Part shown: positions 10,376 to 28,243 of the stretch, in pieces
Layout: each line of letters opens with the position of its first letter
Position numbering within the stretch: the first letter of the stretch is position 1
Virus record (IMG/VR): IMGVR_UViG_3300034106_004770
Location: 1-28,751 of that record
From: a virus
Direction: 5' to 3' (one strand)
DNA: 28,751 bases
Made by a program: the position numbers and the translations under genes
Notes under the pieces: generated by a model
Told to the model about the DNA's origin: nothing
The model's database searches: none
Seen by the model: the letters and a program-made list of their open reading frames with translations, nothing else

Positions 10376-11239
10376 TTAGTTCCCCAGTCCACGCAGCCAG
10401 TCAAAACCACCTTGAACTTGCTCACCCAGCCAATCAAGTCCTTCCAATCCCATCTCAATAGGTGCAGTAATAAGATTGGTAGCAGTGGAGACCGGAGATT
10501 CCAGGAACTGACCAAGTGCGTTCAAACCAGCTTGTACAGGCATAGTTGCTGCCGTCACAATGTCACCAAGACCAAAACCCTGTGCAGGTGCAGCAGTTAC
10601 TGCTTTTGCAGCCATAGGCTGTACAGTAACAGCAGGCATTACAGGAGCTGCCATTGGTGCCGCAGCTACGCCGCCACCAGCGCCAAGTCCACCCATCGCA
10701 CCAGTCAGGAGTTTCTTGGGAAGATCCAGAATATTTCCCTGGCCCTGTGCATCTTTACCTAAACTGTTAAGAGTCTGAAGAAGTAGCAACGCACCTACAG
10801 GAGTTCCCAGCGGATTGGCAGTCTTACCCGTAGTTGTTTGCGTAGTGCCGCGCGTAGCATTGGCAATGTTTGCTGCAACATTTGCCTGAATCTGCTGATT
10901 CTGATTGCGCTGTTCTGCAATTTGTTTCTGTGCAGTCAGCGTAGTTTGTTTCAGCAGCTCAGCCAGTGCAGCTTGCATCTGCGCATTGCCATACGTTCTG
11001 CCCATCGTGCGGCCATAGCCTGCACTGATGCCAGGCACAGCGCCACGCGCCTGGTTAAAAATAGATTCAAGCAGTGCGCCATAATCTGCACCTTGCAGCT
11101 CAGTTTGCAATGCTTGCAATCCACTGATGTCTGCAGGAGACAGCGTAGTGGTTTGGTTTGTGCGTTGCCCGCCAATAAAATTGGCCAGATTGATAACATC
11201 TGTAATGCCCCCGCCACCAGTAGGAAGCTTTTCAGCCAT
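10376..11239 (-). CDS. Putative internal virion/ejection protein
   Basis: This 287-aa protein has a Gly-rich start (KLPTGGGGITDVINLANFIGG), a Gln/Asn-rich helical core (residues 90-135: QAALAELLKQ, AEQRNQNQQIQANVAANIAN) and Ala/Met/Pro-rich hydrophobic stretches near 185-225. It ends with an amphipathic Trp-containing segment (GLDWLGEQVQGGFDWLRGLGN). It is the first gene after the lysis genes, with AAGGAGT as a strong ribosome-binding site before the ATG at 11239. The composition matches its two downstream neighbours, which suggests one functional group: proteins carried in the capsid and ejected. This is inferred from composition and position only. Confidence 0.6.
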   Translation of the reverse strand: MAEKLPTGGGGITDVINLANFIGGQRTNQTTTLSPADISGLQALQTELQGADYGALLESIFNQARGAVPGISAGYGRTMGRTYGNAQMQAALAELLKQTTLTAQKQIAEQRNQNQQIQANVAANIANATRGTTQTTTGKTANPLGTPVGALLLLQTLNSLGKDAQGQGNILDLPKKLLTGAMGGLGAGGGVAAAPMAAPVMPAVTVQPMAAKAVTAAPAQGFGLGDIVTAATMPVQAGLNALGQFLESPVSTATNLITAPIEMGLEGLDWLGEQVQGGFDWLRGLGN

Positions 11240-11331
11240 AATCTTTACTCCTTCCGAAATGCAAAATGCCTACTAGTATTCTAGGCAGCCCCAGAAATAC
11301 CAGCAGGCACACATCCTGTATCAAGGCTTAA

Positions 11332-11499
11332 TTACTTCTTAGCCTTGTCGTACACGCTCCACGCAACGCCAGCAGCGGCAGCGGCACCACCAATAATGAC
11401 ATCCATGGTACCACCATCAATGCCGTACTTGACAGCAAAGCCTCCCGCAATAGCGGTAAGAATATGGCGAACAAGAGCTTGAACAATACTCGAAGTCAT
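11332..11499 (-). CDS. Holin-like small membrane protein (55 aa)
   Basis: This ORF is short and easily missed. It starts at an ATG (plus-strand CAT at 11497-11499) that overlaps the endolysin stop as ATGA and ends with TAA at 11332-11334. It encodes MTSSIVQALVRH, a hydrophobic helix (residues 12-24), a short GIDGGTMD turn, an Ala/Gly-rich second helix (residues 32-50, IIGGAAAAAGVAWSVY) and a basic end DKAKK. Two short hydrophobic helices, a basic C-terminus and direct coupling to the peptidoglycan peptidase gene fit a small phage holin, which forms holes in the inner membrane to time lysis. A matching two-helix pattern is known in small phage holin families. It could also be another lysis accessory protein. 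Confidence 0.72.
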   Translation of the reverse strand: MTSSIVQALVRHILTAIAGGFAVKYGIDGGTMDVIIGGAAAAAGVAWSVYDKAKK

Positions 11500-17515: not shown

Positions 17516-17710
17516 TCAGCCAGTAATCAATCTGATCCGAGAAATTTCTTGCACCAGTTTGGTTGCGGCAAGCTCATCTACTGTCACCTGGCCAGTAGTA
17601 GCATTTGGAGTCAGAGCAGTGGCAGAGCCATTAGTCCGAATCGTAATGCTACTGATGTAGCCAGAATCAGTAGAAAGCATGCCAGGAGTGTTCACTTGAA
17701 TCACTGCCAT
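17516..17710 (-). CDS. Small hypothetical protein downstream of the capsid gene
   Basis: This 64-aa protein is predicted to be beta-rich in its first half (MAVIQVNTPGMLSTDSGYISSITIRTNG), then has a helix (VDELAATKLVQEISRIRLITG). It lies 15 bp after the major capsid gene and has a good Shine-Dalgarno (GGGAGG) a few bases before the ATG. A capsid-associated role (decoration or small head protein) is possible from its position. Nothing in the sequence decides it. It is the last gene before the terminator, so it is likely made at the same level as the capsid protein. Confidence 0.55.
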   Translation of the reverse strand: MAVIQVNTPGMLSTDSGYISSITIRTNGSATALTPNATTGQVTVDELAATKLVQEISRIRLITG

Positions 17711-17725
17711 GACATGCCTCCCTGA

Positions 17726-18925
17726 TTAGCCTGCAGCAGCCGCAGTGAAGTTGTACAGAATGCCGAACGCTGCCGGGTTCTTGATCGTGGAAGTCAACTC
17801 CGTGGTCAGCGTGCCACCTTCCGCGTCAATGCCGTTGTCAATCACCGCACCGCTTGCGTTGTAACCAGCGTCACTGGTCTTGCGCAGGTAAGCCAGAGAG
17901 AAGGCGTTCAGATCGGCAATCACAGCCATTTTTGCCCAGGTGGAGTTAGCACCATAGGCATTGAACAGCGGATGCTCAATCATCTCGAAAGTGCCACGCG
18001 GCGTGCGAAGCATGTCGAGTTGCAGACCCCACGACGTTTCAGTCGTCTGAATCTGGTAAGTAGCGTTCAGGCGCGCAATGTTGTGAATGACACGGCGAGC
18101 CGTGCCACCGACAAACATCGTGCGGATGTTGCCACCCTTCGGATCAGTGACCGTCTCCAGCGTCTTGTCCATAGCCGTTTCCAGCTGCGTCCAGTTCGTG
18201 GTGGCGCCCAGAGTCGTGATGTTGCCAGCAGCTGCGGTCGTCACACGAGCAACAATACCTTCCATCGTGTGGAAAGGCTGACCATTGCGAGTGCCCATAA
18301 ACTTCTGACCGAAGAACAGAGCTTTCTCAATCGCCATTGCGTGCAACGCAGCACAATCCTGCTTGCTTTCGCTGACATAGCCAGCACCAGCAATCTGCGG
18401 AATAGCAGCAGCAGTCTTGGTGACAGCCCAGCTATTGCGGAAGATCTGCGTGTTGTTGACGTAGCGCGTGGCAATGATCGAAACTGCCGACGGACGAACC
18501 GAACCTTCTTCAAAGGCGTTGCCGATGGTGCGCCACAGATCGCCGTTGTTAACAGCAGCTGCGGTAGTGGTGCCCACTGCACGAACCACAGTCAGCGTGG
18601 TAGCGAGCGGCGTGGCAGTGACCAGCACGATTTCATTCGTGCGCTCGTTCAGCAGCAGATCGCCAGGAACAATGTCAGTGTTCGACGCGACGGTCAGCGT
18701 AGTATCGCCAGACGTTGCCGACGCCGTCATCGTTGCCGACGGAAAAATCATCGTCTTCGAGAAGTAGCCATGCTCGATGTTGGCAGCCGTCTCATCTTTG
18801 AGAAGGGCAGTCAGGCCAAACAACGGAGCAGTACCATTCGGCATCAGCCGAGTGATAGCTTGAGCAAAGCTGACCGCATTCAGGTTTTGCGGTGCGCTTG
18901 CAGAAGAAAGAAGTCCAACAGCCAT
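17726..18925 (-). CDS. Major capsid protein, SU10 family (DUF5309-like)
   Basis: This 399-aa protein forms the icosahedral shell with an HK97-type fold. The family signature as I know it appears near the end: LTTELTSTIKNPAAFGILYN (residues 371-390), plus MAVIADLNAFSLAYLRKTSDAG before it. The N-terminus, residues 1-45, contains ALLKDETAANIEH. Residues 60-120 carry an insertion-like beta segment (SATSGDTTLTVASNTDIVPGD). The length is typical. The gene starts at 18925 with AAAGGAAC upstream. It looks C-rich at third positions compared with its neighbours, as expected for a highly expressed gene. The scaffold lies immediately upstream and the 64-aa gene follows 15 bp later. Confidence 0.82.
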   Translation of the reverse strand: MAVGLLSSASAPQNLNAVSFAQAITRLMPNGTAPLFGLTALLKDETAANIEHGYFSKTMIFPSATMTASATSGDTTLTVASNTDIVPGDLLLNERTNEIVLVTATPLATTLTVVRAVGTTTAAAVNNGDLWRTIGNAFEEGSVRPSAVSIIATRYVNNTQIFRNSWAVTKTAAAIPQIAGAGYVSESKQDCAALHAMAIEKALFFGQKFMGTRNGQPFHTMEGIVARVTTAAAGNITTLGATTNWTQLETAMDKTLETVTDPKGGNIRTMFVGGTARRVIHNIARLNATYQIQTTETSWGLQLDMLRTPRGTFEMIEHPLFNAYGANSTWAKMAVIADLNAFSLAYLRKTSDAGYNASGAVIDNGIDAEGGTLTTELTSTIKNPAAFGILYNFTAAAAG

Positions 18926-21968: not shown

Positions 21969-23441
21969 TTAATACGGCAACGCCAGTGTATCCGCGTGCG
22001 TAGCAGACACATTTTCAGAATCTACATCAAAGATCGTTTTTACAATCAGGTGCGGGTACTCACGCATGAGTTCATCCACATAGCCGATTGGATCAATGAT
22101 ATCGTCTACATTACTGATCTTGAGTGGATTCCAGTCCATGATCTGCGACAGGACTTTGCTGCGCACATTTGGATGCAGGTAAATTTCGCCTGAGATCAGC
22201 CGTAGCAGGCCGCGCTTGATACGATTATTCTTAGCCTGCCCTTTGGGACTGAGTTCTACAAACTCAAAACCAGAAATGCCTTCTTTTTCGCAATAAAATT
22301 CAAACCAGTAAAGGAGCGTAGATTGATACGCTACACCTTCCACAGCTATGAGTCGCGTGCCGCGTTCCAGTGCCAACCGAATGGCAGCCTGTATTGTCTC
22401 CAGTGGAGAGAATGTCCCATGAAGTAGATCATCAAATACGGGTTTACCATCACAAACGCTGTAATGGCTAATAGTACAGTCATCTGATGTTTTCTTTCCG
22501 GCGGAGGGGTCAATGATGATGAACGAACCTTCGGAATCTGCATCGTGATAATAAGATGGCAGGACTGGAATGCGAGAAATATCAATTCCACTCGCTGCTG
22601 CAATATCGGTGCTGTTCAGAATTTCTGAAATAAAGATGTCTGCATGGCCAAGTTCAGAGTCAGACTGATATTCGCTGATCAGTTCTTCGATTGGCCGCAA
22701 TTCTTCCCAAAGACTTGTGCCATCTGCAAGAATGCCACCGACGATAAAAGAAGTCCACTGAGTATTGTGCTTGAGCTTTTCAAGAATACAGTTTTGCGGG
22801 TACATGTTTCCAACATAGATGTATGTACACCCATCATTGGAACGAGCTTTCATCAGCGTACCCAAAATCCACTTTAGGAGTTGGTCACTGAGGTCTTTGT
22901 TCTCAGATGTTTCACGTTTTTGCACGTCATCCATAATGATGACATCTGGGCGCTTGTTTTTTCTGTTAATCCCGCGGACTGCAGTGCCAGCGCCAATGGC
23001 CCGGAGAATAATGTTGCGACCGCGAAAATGAAATACTTTTAAAGCCTGCGTGTCAACTTCTATCTGTGCTTGCCAGTTACCAAACAATTTGCGGATATTA
23101 GGACTGCCCAAAAGATCACAAATATCTGAGAGTGTATTAACGGCTAGGTCTTCACTAGCGCCAACGATCAAAATAAATTGCTTGTGCGAAAAAAGAATAT
23201 ACCATAGGCACAGGAGCTTGACAAAAGTAGTTTTTGCAAAGCCCCGTGGAATACCTATGGCATATCGTTCTAGCTTCTTTGTAAAGCTAGTTAAGAGTGA
23301 GAACAGTGTAATATAAAATGGCGGAAAGGAATATGTGAATTCCTCTGGCGCAGCCAACATTCCCAGGAAGTTTAGATCTCTACGAGAGAGCTCCGCTGCT
23401 TCCTGAGATGATGTTCCTAGTTCAGTAGTATTAGCAGTCAT
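21969..23441 (-). CDS. Terminase large subunit
   Basis: This 490-aa protein is the packaging motor (ATPase plus nuclease). Walker A-like IPRGFAKTT spans residues 64-72 and Walker B VIIMDD residues 167-172, with a YVGNMYPQ motif near 209. The nuclease domain has IIIDPSAGKKTSDD (residues 308-321; D311), AVEGVAYQST (residues 366-375; E368) and the final acidic cluster DDIIDPIGYVDEL (residues 446-458). The length is normal. The start is TAATG-coupled to the 99-aa gene and the Shine-Dalgarno is weak, so coupling may be important. It is separated from the small terminase by about 2.4 kb of fibre genes. Confidence 0.93.
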   Translation of the reverse strand: MTANTTELGTSSQEAAELSRRDLNFLGMLAAPEEFTYSFPPFYITLFSLLTSFTKKLERYAIGIPRGFAKTTFVKLLCLWYILFSHKQFILIVGASEDLAVNTLSDICDLLGSPNIRKLFGNWQAQIEVDTQALKVFHFRGRNIILRAIGAGTAVRGINRKNKRPDVIIMDDVQKRETSENKDLSDQLLKWILGTLMKARSNDGCTYIYVGNMYPQNCILEKLKHNTQWTSFIVGGILADGTSLWEELRPIEELISEYQSDSELGHADIFISEILNSTDIAAASGIDISRIPVLPSYYHDADSEGSFIIIDPSAGKKTSDDCTISHYSVCDGKPVFDDLLHGTFSPLETIQAAIRLALERGTRLIAVEGVAYQSTLLYWFEFYCEKEGISGFEFVELSPKGQAKNNRIKRGLLRLISGEIYLHPNVRSKVLSQIMDWNPLKISNVDDIIDPIGYVDELMREYPHLIVKTIFDVDSENVSATHADTLALPY

Positions 23442-25360: not shown

Positions 25361-25594
25361 TTACCAGAGGGCAACAATGTTAGATGCCGTGGTACCAGTA
25401 GCATTCACACGCGTACATTGAACTGGAAGAATTCCAACAGCCACTGTGTTAAAAACTACAGTACCATTCAGCATCACAACAGAGATGTTTCCAGTTGTAC
25501 CTACATAAAGTGAGCGTGTAGGTGCAGCAAGGTTGATTGAATCAGAAGGAGTAACGGCAGCGCCGTAACGTGCAGGATCACTGACATTGCTCAT
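25361..25594 (-). CDS. Spike-base-like protein (RcGTA Rcc01079-like)
   Basis: This 77-aa protein is predicted to be all-beta. Its pattern is ...AVTPSDSINLAAPTRSLYVGTTGNISVVMLNGTVVFNTVAVGILPVQCTRVNATGTTASNIVALW. It strongly resembles the spike-base protein family known from Rhodobacter gene transfer agent: 'AVTPSDTTDLAxxTRxLYVGxxGDVxVxxxxGxxVxFxxVPAGxxLPVxxxRVxATGTTAxDIVAL'. It may form the base of a surface spike or decorate the head. It is the first gene after the structured 286-bp gap. A family search is not possible here, so the name is based on pattern recall. Confidence 0.7.
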   Translation of the reverse strand: MSNVSDPARYGAAVTPSDSINLAAPTRSLYVGTTGNISVVMLNGTVVFNTVAVGILPVQCTRVNATGTTASNIVALW

Positions 25595-25629
25595 TTTAAC
25601 TCTCCACGAGTGCTTGGTTGATTAAAGAT

Positions 25630-25665
25630 AGTATAGATAGATAAAGATATTAAAAGCTAAGTCAA
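25630..25665 (-). promoter_or_regulatory. Possible sigma70-like promoter for the structural genes
   Basis: On the minus strand TTGACT (25665-25660) lies 16 bases from TATCTA (25643-25638), and a better TATACT box lies at 25635-25630 but at a 24-base distance. The region is AT-rich and 36-71 bp upstream of the spike-base ATG. The -35 is good and the -10 is only fair, so the evidence is modest. Confidence 0.3.
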
Positions 25666-25757
25666 ATCTACGCTCCGCTCCACTTCAGGCGCGCAGCCGC
25701 CATGGCTAGCTTACTTCGGTGACTAACCCCAATCAAGGCAAACCCTTCGGGCTCCGT

Positions 25758-25778
25758 AAAATTTGCTTCGCAAATTTT
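25758..25778 (-). repeat. Perfect 9-bp hairpin with GAA triloop
   Basis: On the minus strand the arms AAAATTTGC and GCAAATTTT are perfectly paired around GAA. The core GCGAAGC is the well-known extra-stable DNA mini-hairpin sequence. It is followed 4 bp downstream, in minus reading, by another GAA-loop hairpin (25753-25741). A run of T residues closes the arm, so a weak terminator role is also conceivable. Confidence 0.75.
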
Positions 25779-25880
25779 CCTCCGGCCTTGACAGGGGACC
25801 CCGCGTCACCTCGTGGCTTCGCCATGCGGCCACGGCCTGGCGTTCCGCTACGCTATAATTCCTAAGCCCGTCCCCAGGAA

Positions 25881-26489
25881 CTAAAGCATATCCGCAGACA
25901 AGGGCAATGGCGCCCGTGGCGTGGCTCTGGGAATAAGAGATTTAGGTGTGGTCAACTTATCCAGCATCGCCGCCGCCTTTTCAGTTGCCGTGATTTGCGG
26001 CAGCCTAGGATCTTTGGCGTTGCGATCTGCCAGGATCTGGTCTAGGGTCTTGGCCGTGGCGCTCAGCATAGTCTGCCCTTCAACTTCAATGATTTCATTC
26101 TGACTGTTTGTTACGTATTTCGGGATTGCAGACTGTGGCAATGTGAGATTCACAGTCAGGCTGACTGCGGAATCTGCTTGCATGACTGGATCAGAACGCC
26201 GACGCGCAGTGTTAAGAATGCGGAATGCAGCAATGGCCTGGCCCATGTTGGCAAAGGGCAGATTCTTTTTAATCTTGTCCAACGCCAGCGCCTCAGCACC
26301 CTCCAGATCATGGTCAAATTCCATGTCTGCAATGCTTGCTGCAGCTTGCTGTTCTGCAATCTGAGTCTGAGCATCTGGGTCAGCTTTCAGTTGGCTGACA
26401 TAAGAGTCACTGACGCCACAGGCCGCAGCCACTTGTGAAGTGGGAATGCCTTGGGCAAGAAGTCTGATTGCATGTTCTTTGGTGTTCAT
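25881..26489 (-). CDS. Terminase small subunit
   Basis: This 202-aa protein recognises the packaging site and brings the DNA to the large subunit. The N-terminal helix-turn-helix is clear: AIRLLAQGIPTSQVAAACGVSDSYVSQLKAD (residues 7-37). A helical middle (residues 40-110, QTQIAEQQAAASIADMEFDHDLEGAEALALDKIKKNLPF) fits the oligomerisation core. SLTVNLTLPQSAIPKYVTNSQNEIIEVEGQTML (residues 129-161) is a beta segment like that of other small terminases. A near-perfect AAGGAGG lies 10 bases before the ATG and overlaps the previous stop. It lies upstream of the structured gap and about 2.4 kb upstream of TerL in transcription order. Confidence 0.75.
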   Translation of the reverse strand: MNTKEHAIRLLAQGIPTSQVAAACGVSDSYVSQLKADPDAQTQIAEQQAAASIADMEFDHDLEGAEALALDKIKKNLPFANMGQAIAAFRILNTARRRSDPVMQADSAVSLTVNLTLPQSAIPKYVTNSQNEIIEVEGQTMLSATAKTLDQILADRNAKDPRLPQITATEKAAAMLDKLTTPKSLIPRATPRAPLPLSADML

Positions 26490-26504: not shown

Positions 26505-27656
26505 TTAGTATGAACGCTCTAGGCGCTGAATGTTAGGCAGCCTGCCAGGAGTCATATTTTGACTCTGCCGTGCCTCAACTTCTCCAAAAATATTTCTGTA
26601 GAGATTGTACAAATATGCATCTGGGTCTGCAGGCACTCTGGGAGATTTTAGTGTTGGGTACATGCTAGCGAAATCAATGTCTATTAATGTAGCTATTACG
26701 TCATCTAACTCTTGCTTCGTGCGAAATGAGCCCATTTGTTTGGCTTCTTCAATAGACTGCACTAATGGATCTATTGCCACTTGTGAGCCGCTGCGTGTGA
26801 AGCCGTAGCCTTGCCCACCATGCGTAAGTTCATGAATAAGTGTGCTTATAAAAGGAGACTCTGAAGTTGTTGCAACAGAACTAGGCAGCCCTATCCTATT
26901 ACTGCCAACATTATAGTACCCTAAAACGTTAGTATTATCTAAGTTTGGATCATGTATGATGCGCGTGCCCTTTAGCTCTGGCATAAGTTTATACAAACTT
27001 TCGTGCGGCAACACAGTCTCGACACGGACAGTATTTTGCCCTCCGAGTAGAGGCTTACCAAGATTTACAGCACCAGTTGCAGGATCTGCGGTAAAAAGTT
27101 GTGAACCAAAATTTGGCTTAAATGCTTGGTTTGACAATGACGCCCGCAGCTTCATGTCTGGGCCGACGTACATGCCCTCAACAGCCATGGGAAAATTTGC
27201 AGCTTTTAGTGCTTTATTCGACTCTGCAAGTACCTTGGCATTGTCGCCAGTTCTAGCATAAGTGCGCAGAGCTTGGTCTGCAATTTTAGAGACGCCAGCC
27301 CGCGTAGCTTGCGCCGCGGTGAAAGGAATAATAATAGCTTTGGCAGCGCCGCCGGGGCTCATCATGCCCAGCACGCTCTCTACAGTATTCTGCGTAGCAT
27401 TGTCAGATTTCTTTAGACCAAATGCTTCATTTATACTTTCACTGCCGCCCACGGGTTTTTTGCTCAGGCCCTGCAGTCCTCGCCCAGCCAATGCGCCAAG
27501 GAGCAAATTTGCTGTGTCAACCCCGGCACCAGCAAGAAGCCCAGGCACGCGCTTCACAGCATTCCAAACTGCAGAGTTTGACTTGGCATTTTCTGCCCGC
27601 AACGCCGCCACGATTTCTGCCTGGGTTTGCGCCGGCGCCGTCTGAGTTTGTGCCAT
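26505..27656 (-). CDS. Zincin-like metallopeptidase-type phage protein (LPD23-like)
   Basis: This 383-aa protein has a zinc-protease HExxH motif, HELTH at residues 275-279 (LIHELTHGGQGYGF), and a likely third ligand Glu in GEVEARQSQ (residues 358-366). The pairing 'LhHEh.HhhQ ... YR.hhGEVEAR..Q' resembles LPD23 of phage polyvalent proteins. The first 60 residues include a Gly-rich hydrophobic segment (GVDTANLLLGALAGRG). It is the first gene of the late block and ends at the small terminase Shine-Dalgarno. GGAG precedes the ATG. The target is unknown: it may process virion proteins, or be ejected and act on the host. A fused or split form of larger polyvalent proteins is possible. Confidence 0.7.
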   Translation of the reverse strand: MAQTQTAPAQTQAEIVAALRAENAKSNSAVWNAVKRVPGLLAGAGVDTANLLLGALAGRGLQGLSKKPVGGSESINEAFGLKKSDNATQNTVESVLGMMSPGGAAKAIIIPFTAAQATRAGVSKIADQALRTYARTGDNAKVLAESNKALKAANFPMAVEGMYVGPDMKLRASLSNQAFKPNFGSQLFTADPATGAVNLGKPLLGGQNTVRVETVLPHESLYKLMPELKGTRIIHDPNLDNTNVLGYYNVGSNRIGLPSSVATTSESPFISTLIHELTHGGQGYGFTRSGSQVAIDPLVQSIEEAKQMGSFRTKQELDDVIATLIDIDFASMYPTLKSPRVPADPDAYLYNLYRNIFGEVEARQSQNMTPGRLPNIQRLERSY

Positions 27657-27826
27657 AGGATCTCCAATGATTAATTTATTCTATCTCCGAGCTTGGTGTT
27701 TATAAGAAAGACAAATCCTCCCGTAGTTAAAAGTGCGAAGCAATCTAGTTTGAAAATTTTAGAAAATTCCGGAGGATGTCATAGGAATATTCCAACGACA
27801 CAACCCAAAAAGGGCCTGTACCCCCT

Positions 27827-28109
27827 TCAATCCTCATTTGTGCAGCGAAGCTGCGCTGCGCGTAAGCGCACTCGTCCATCTGGACGCGCCCCTGGCGCTA
27901 GCTCCGCACTACTTAAATACTTCCGGCCAATAGCAAAGCGCTGAATCAAAGCGAGGACGGAGTTCGAGTCAACCATCATTTGTTTTGTGAGTCGCAGACT
28001 CGTGAACGAACGAAGTGAGTGAACAATCAACCCTCTGTTTGGGCAAAGCCCATTCAACATTCACTTGACCCCAGCTGCGCAGCGAAGCGGAGCTTCAATC
28101 CTCTGTTTG
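27827..28109 (+). repeat. Recurring 14-15-nt box, each followed by a hairpin
   Basis: Copies: TCAATCCTCATTTG (27827-27840), TCAACCATCATTTG (27969-27982), TCAACCCTCTGTTTG (28027-28041) and TCAATCCTCTGTTTG (28095-28109), with a weaker TCAACATTCACTTG (28054-28067). Each of the first four is followed within 0-6 bases by a perfect hairpin of different stem sequence (27842, 27989, 28040 and 28109). The box is kept while the stem changes, so the units look functional rather than simple copies. In minus reading the box has a GAGG core. Confidence 0.75.
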
Positions 28110-28173
28110 GCCGTAGGCCTGGCCGTCAGGCCAAGCCGTAGGCCTGGCAGCGTAGCTGCCCCGGCGAAGCCGG
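27842..28173 (+). repeat. Array of short perfect hairpins with 3-4-nt loops
   Basis: Stems of 4-6 bp with loops in plus reading: 27842-27854 (GCAGC, loop GAA), 27857-27870 (TGCGC, GTAA), 27873-27886 (CGTCC, loop ATCT), 27886-27898 (GCGCC, CCT), 27989-28001 (GAGTC, GCA), 28040-28052 (TGGGC, AAA), 28084-28096 (GAAGC, GGA), 28109-28119 (GGCC, GTA), 28120-28133 (TGGCC, GTCA), 28146-28160 (GGCAGC, GTA) and 28161-28173 (CCGGC, GAA). A 10-bp palindrome GCTGCGCAGC (28074-28083) adds to this. Most loops are of GNA or GNNA type on this strand. Confidence 0.85.
28110..28148 (+). repeat. 14-bp direct repeat GCCGTAGGCCTGGC
   Basis: Identical copies lie at 28110-28123 and 28135-28148, 25 bp apart. Each contains a GTA-loop hairpin core (GCC-GTA-GGC), and the two copies can also pair with each other's GGCC parts. 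Confidence 0.8.
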
Positions 28174-28207
28174 ATTGTTTATCTGACTGTGAGCGAAGCG
28201 AACGCAA

Positions 28208-28236
28208 TTTTTTACGTAGCGAAGCGAAGTAAAAAA
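28208..28236. repeat. AT-rich inverted repeat at the edge of the hairpin array
   Basis: TTTTTTAC (28208-28215) pairs with GTAAAAAA (28229-28236). The loop holds two GCGAA units. On the plus side it is followed by nine T residues (28237-28245). It may act as a weak terminator or boundary. Confidence 0.55.
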
Positions 28237-28243
28237 TTTTTTT

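Follow-up and report, generated by a model that had tools for sequence, protein, structure and literature searches.

A conserved, covarying RNA rod found at differing late-gene junctions of related phages

The window analysed here is a complete IMG/VR record (IMGVR_UViG_3300034106_004770) of 28,751 bases that is classed as linear. The minus strand carries its late genes, which include the portal gene, terL (21969-23441), the fibre genes, the small terminase gene terS and a gene for a 383-aa protein with a HELTH motif. By TerL the closest isolated phages are about 36-38% identical (119X/PaP2-group Pseudomonas phages, Polaromonas phage Tiera, EBPR podovirus 3 and Aeromonas phage P5). A preliminary description of this DNA had singled out a 286-bp gap between the small terminase and the fibre genes, and this gap is real (25595-25880), with terS as its upstream and a 77-aa tail-fibre gene as its downstream neighbour (Table 1). 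The remaining late junctions are indeed short (0-92 bp), as the apparent gap of 256 nt at 11240-11495 holds a 55-aa holin-like ORF (11332-11499) that leaves only 92 nt. A long hairpin follows this ORF at 11240-11331, the region 11240-11495 folding with a z of -5.1, and an unusually good fold on the coding strand (z -5.8) was also seen at 17540-17740, a mostly coding stretch beside the capsid gene.

Read on the minus strand, the gap contains a predicted unbranched rod whose tip carries two small hairpins (Table 1). Folded alone, the rod reaches -91.4 kcal/mol (z -4.7) and 0 of 200 shuffles were as stable; the z values are -4.1 for the rod as single-stranded DNA and -2.8 for the whole 286-nt gap. 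It is made up of short helices between small, mostly purine-rich internal loops, the feet consisting of GC pairs parted by GNA/GGA loops, and the loop sequences CACGAG, GAAGUAAGC and GUCAAGG are conserved. Predicted folds and covariation (below) agree on a transcript that forms one long stem-loop, as in repeats of the MITE/ERIC/NEMIS type. The GAA-loop hairpins previously noticed in minus reading, one of them with a perfect 9-bp stem, are present and prove to be the tip of this larger rod. The 9-bp stem is a perfect palindrome and therefore pairs on either strand, and its loop reads TTC in the relatives L110 and L111. The G-T pair noticed in the other hairpin does work in the minus strand only, where it is a G-U pair, the plus strand having an A-C mismatch at this position.

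Table 1. Features in and around the gap between terS and the tail-fibre gene
Feature	Position	Strand	Basis
Structured RNA element: rod without branches, 47-48 pairs, with two small hairpins as its cap	25668..25856	-	R1 228 bits, R2 182 bits; fold z -4.7; covariation
Rod apex: helix UCAAGGC/GCCUUGA around two hairpins, UU before the closing strand	25733..25791	-	Fold; layout shared with relatives and phage P5
Cap hairpin 1: AAAAUUUGC-GAA-GCAAAUUUU, 9 bp	25758..25778	-	Sequence; fold
Cap hairpin 2: AGCCC-GAA-GGGUU, with G-U pair	25741..25753	-	Sequence; fold
Covarying helix GGUGAC/GUCACC, 5' strand	25805..25810	-	Alignment; pair counts
Covarying helix GGUGAC/GUCACC, 3' strand	25718..25723	-	Alignment; pair counts
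AGCGTAG, 5' foot, repeated directly at the 3' foot; within a GC-(GNA)-GC foot helix	25848..25854	-	Sequence; empty site keeps one GCGTAG
AGCGTAG, 3' foot	25668..25674	-	Sequence; empty-site comparison
TATACTAT, contains TATACT; possible -10 element, outside the rod	25628..25635	-	Conserved about 40 nt before the next gene's start codon
Small terminase gene terS, upstream neighbour of the gap	25881..26489	-	PHROG 16503, E 1e-5
77-aa tail-fibre gene, downstream neighbour of the gap	25361..25594	-	PHROG 12296, E 2e-22

Searching for TerS, TerL and the 77-aa fibre protein yielded more than 100 loci, and the covariance models R1 and R2, both of which miss diverged rods, detected this rod in 12 different related sequences. 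Comparing the gap with relatives for stem covariance, as the preliminary description had proposed, revealed that its stems covary. In the 12-sequence alignment 91.2% of the pair cells hold standard pairs, 27 of the 47 pairs show two-sided changes and the covariation score is 0.42, as opposed to 27-41% paired, 3-8 pairs and a score of at most 0.06 in slid controls, for which the partners were moved by 1-3 columns in the same 12 sequences. Since this alignment is fitted to the model, we repeated the covariation test with six sequences aligned by MAFFT from sequence alone, where 96.5% of the cells are paired and 9 pairs have two-sided changes, compared with 25-43% and 0-3 in the controls. The helix GGUGAC/GUCACC of the window, for example, is replaced by GAUAGC/GCUAUC in L018/L111 and by AACUGC/GCAGUU in L007/L008. 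Covariation of this kind across relatives indicates that the predicted fold is not due to chance.

The two strands of the rod are not equivalent. For each of the 12 copies the fold of the coding-strand RNA is 9.1 to 20.7 kcal/mol more stable than that of the complement, and the paired columns hold 33 G-U cells versus 4 A-C cells, and 22 A-G versus 5 C-T cells; all these cell counts stem from the model-fitted alignment, the fold energies do not. This asymmetry is what selection on a transcribed RNA would give and, together with the more stable fold of the coding strand, argues for the minus strand as the functional one. The earlier suggestion to that effect, drawn from a single G-T pair, thus holds generally across the 12 copies, and reading the gap as an RNA element is likewise borne out by covariation and strand asymmetry. 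Comparison among the relatives shows that 25668-25856 (minus strand) is a conserved structured element, selected as RNA on the strand of the late transcript.

The position of the rod varies between relatives. It lies directly downstream of terS in the window, L002, L003, L005, L018/L019 and L110/L111, and diverged rods found elsewhere by R1 (E about 1e-11 or better) lie just before terL (L007, L008, L115), between terL and portal (L124), or between portal and the next gene (L118, and L119, there after an inserted 208-aa gene). Its orientation is sense in every case. In a TerL tree the copies before terL form one clade and the two copies after portal another, and the copies after terS are interleaved with records that gave no match. 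A close comparison is offered by L004, whose TerS and TerL are 95% and 98% identical to those of the window and which has a 92-nt gap without the rod at its terS junction. The join at this empty site keeps a single GCGTAG, and the window has AGCGTAG on both sides of the rod. L101 also lacks the rod that L111 carries before the same downstream gene, its empty site not being clean. Records that begin downstream of terS could not be counted as empty there. Fourteen records have one significant copy each, rather than the several copies per genome of repeats of the MITE/ERIC/NEMIS type, and neither R1 nor R2 has a match in the three long contigs G041, G046 and G047 (37-45 kb; possibly incomplete, and the models miss diverged rods). 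The rod is shown by this comparison to occupy differing late-gene junctions in related phages and, as it can be absent, to be dispensable.

The preliminary description had taken the neighbouring terminase gene as grounds for a possible packaging start site. If the rod were a packaging start (cos/pac), or a packaging RNA like that of phi29, its place next to terS in the window and just before terL in L007, L008 and L115 would be accounted for. The phi29 packaging RNA is a structured phage RNA of a length similar to that of the rod, and the rod is near packaging genes in some relatives; unlike the phi29 RNA, however, it wanders off the packaging genes, can be missing at the terS junction and has no Rfam match. 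It follows portal in L118 and L119 and is absent from the terS junction of L004, even though the terminases of L004 are near-identical to those of the window, and these two observations make a packaging start very unlikely. In 119X, moreover, terS lies about 2 kb after the start of the deposited genome, whose ends may differ from the physical ones, and for Shea, a phage of the 119X/PaP2 type, terminally redundant ends alone are reported (PMC13348215).

A promoter had been proposed for the gap as well. The strong hairpins of the rod and the conserved TATACT downstream of it would fit a promoter or a transcription terminator/attenuator. However, the coding strand of the gap has no sigma-70 promoter (TTGACA - 16-18 nt - TATAAT), the TATACT standing alone with no -35 box, and no intrinsic terminator (a GC-rich stem followed by a T run), there being no T run after the rod. 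The TATACT is conserved whether or not a relative carries the rod and, as it is present in the rod-less L004 and L101, is independent of the rod; it may be part of a promoter of the fibre module. That the rod itself is a promoter or terminator is therefore most improbable, and the promoter proposal is not supported.

Rfam 15 (4227 covariance models) has no match up to E 1 at 25400-26000 of the window, and none at gathering score in the window or in L003, L005, L008, L018, L111, L118, L119, L124, L170 and L173. R2 found nothing in 200 genomes of one bacterial family, and pattern matches in bacterial genomes were due to chance, with 0 confirmed by R2. The DNA of the gap has short chance matches only among deposited phages, and terL searches seeded with P5 and 119X added 0 relatives. 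The rod represents an apparently undescribed family of structured phage RNA. A 6S-like RNA, considered for GUCCCCUG, was rejected (no large central bubble, no Rfam match), as was the guide RNA of an IscB-like protein (no Rfam match, and no gene for such a protein seen nearby). Elsewhere in the window, the non-coding stretch at 27815-28240, upstream of the 383-aa gene, is the hairpin array named in the preliminary description; it has many GNA-loop hairpins and GCGAAGC-type repeats, and R2 gives a chance-level match only (28190-28229, E 0.08).

The conserved loop sequences point to a specific protein or fold, as plain RNase III sites would not need them. One explanation is that the rod is a trans-acting non-coding RNA, an accessory gene whose product is excised from the late transcript and binds a host or phage protein via its internal loops. 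Compact conservation over the full length would agree with this as the conserved loops do, and variable position and dispensability would fit an accessory gene. Nevertheless, the rod has no promoter or terminator of its own that we could find, is always embedded between late genes and lacks an Rfam relative, and we regard a trans-acting RNA as distinctly unlikely.

Possible kin were found in two isolated phages. In Aeromonas phage P5 (L173) a full-length but weak R2 match (28 bits, E 1.5e-4, fold z -6.6) lies in sense orientation and takes up the whole space separating two late genes. Long palindromic rods number at least five in P5, at 5009, 12157, 18016, 38015 and 45122, in early and late operons, and all have the type of cap seen in the window (here TCAAGGG - two hairpins - CCCTTGA); two of them are 73.5% identical over 117 nt. 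The P5 rods show no strand bias, which makes their kinship to the RNA element tentative. Pseudomonas phage 119X carries a strongly sense-biased rod (z -5.75) between gp09 and gp10. This rod could be a circular permutation of the window family, its two halves beating most shuffles (3/300 and 14/300, post hoc), which is suggestive only.

The P5 rods also bear on the idea that the rod is chiefly a mobile DNA palindrome of the MITE/ERIC/YPAL kind, with a structure that serves its own movement rather than the phage. Consistent with this are the several junctions occupied in relatives, the filled and empty sites, the AGCGTAG direct repeats at the feet and, in P5, the five or more rods, of which the two similar ones share a DNA strand even though their operons run in opposite directions. 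Yet the copies of the window family are all sense and selection favours the RNA strand, one copy per record was found, and no transposase or terminal inverted-repeat signature was seen; the direct repeats at the feet could equally be microhomology. A repeat that serves mainly itself is therefore unlikely in our view.

We tentatively favour the reading that the rod acts in cis within the late transcript as an RNA of changeable position, a boundary element for mRNA processing or stability. In its favour we count the covariation, the sense-strand bias, the four kinds of junction, the filled and empty sites of the window and L004, and a coding strand of the gap without terminator or sigma-70 promoter; against it count the conserved loop sequences and the dispensability of the rod, which relatives lack at the terS junction. 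The rod would be transcribed within the late polycistronic mRNA and act in cis, its double strand being recognised and cut by RNase III or a similar nuclease, or else blocking exonucleases, such that the terS mRNA and the downstream fibre/packaging mRNA would become separate pieces of unequal stability. Movement of the rod from one junction to another, as well as its loss, would probably proceed via the short direct repeats, rich in GCGNA, that lie at the feet.

A precedent for such a boundary element, of similar size, is provided by ERIC and NEMIS. ERIC, NEMIS/Correia and YPAL/RU-2 are palindromic intergenic repeats of bacteria, about 100-170 nt in length, that are transcribed into a long and stable stem-loop; mRNA stability is changed by ERIC, and for NEMIS cutting by RNase III has been proposed (PMC2229807). 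The rod resembles them in its intergenic location and long stable stem-loop transcript, but was found here only in phages, covaries over its full length with conserved internal loops and, in the window family, occurs once per record and always in sense orientation. RNase III sites of the T7 type are intergenic rods in polycistronic phage transcripts. In contrast to these, the rod has a conserved sequence and a cap common to several phages, and varies in position between relatives. The PeSL of T4-type phages, which are mobile regulatory cassettes with an early promoter and short hairpins, are small non-coding stem-loops that move between phage genes as the rod does; the rod differs in its length of 160-205 nt, in lying in late operons and in having no promoter inside.

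There are few records of structured RNAs shifting position within phage operons, and the present case combines strong covariation, a clear RNA-strand bias and filled and empty sites in close relatives with tentative relatives in two phages amenable to laboratory culture, P5 and 119X. The role of the rod and its movement are thus directly testable. If a wider family of capped rods is real, many unexplained intergenic gaps of phages may have one origin. Such a superfamily, large and undescribed, would have near-free palindromic arms and a conserved cap made up of TGTCAAGGG, one or two mini-hairpins and CCCTTGACA, would have spread between phage genes, with a circularly permuted form in 119X, and would be read by a protein that recognises cap or loops; that the rod belongs to it is conceivable but doubtful. 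The symmetric cap pattern occurs in 97 stretches of viral contigs, about 20 of which have very long, mutually differing palindromic arms; a search of 369 genomes from a single bacterial class found no match. These matches do not establish the wider family, since the pattern contained TTGACA, had no control motif in the viral collection and some matches are promoter-like; the P5, cap-pattern and 119X links are tentative, leads rather than established kinship.

Several individual palindromes came to light in these searches. Very long ones with the TGTCAAGGG/CCCTTGACA cap and differing arms lie in the metagenomic viral contigs L230 (2172), L242 (774 and 1626), L251 (118), L256 (9326), L221 (3590) and L206 (8938), and L251 and L256 also have the base of the arms in common. 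In L188 the right half of a capped palindrome (10391-10440) reads TTGACA - 17 nt - TATAAT, a perfect sigma-70 promoter, so that some matches to the cap pattern may be promoters and not kin. A perfect palindrome with a NotI-like core in EBPR podovirus 3 (L172, 9386-9550) repeats the last bases of the record and is for this reason probably a cloning or assembly artefact. Finally, the HELTH metallopeptidase-like motif occurs near the rod in two otherwise dissimilar proteins (window 26505-27656 and L119 4214-4840), the gene lying directly before the rod in L119 and one gene before it in the window.
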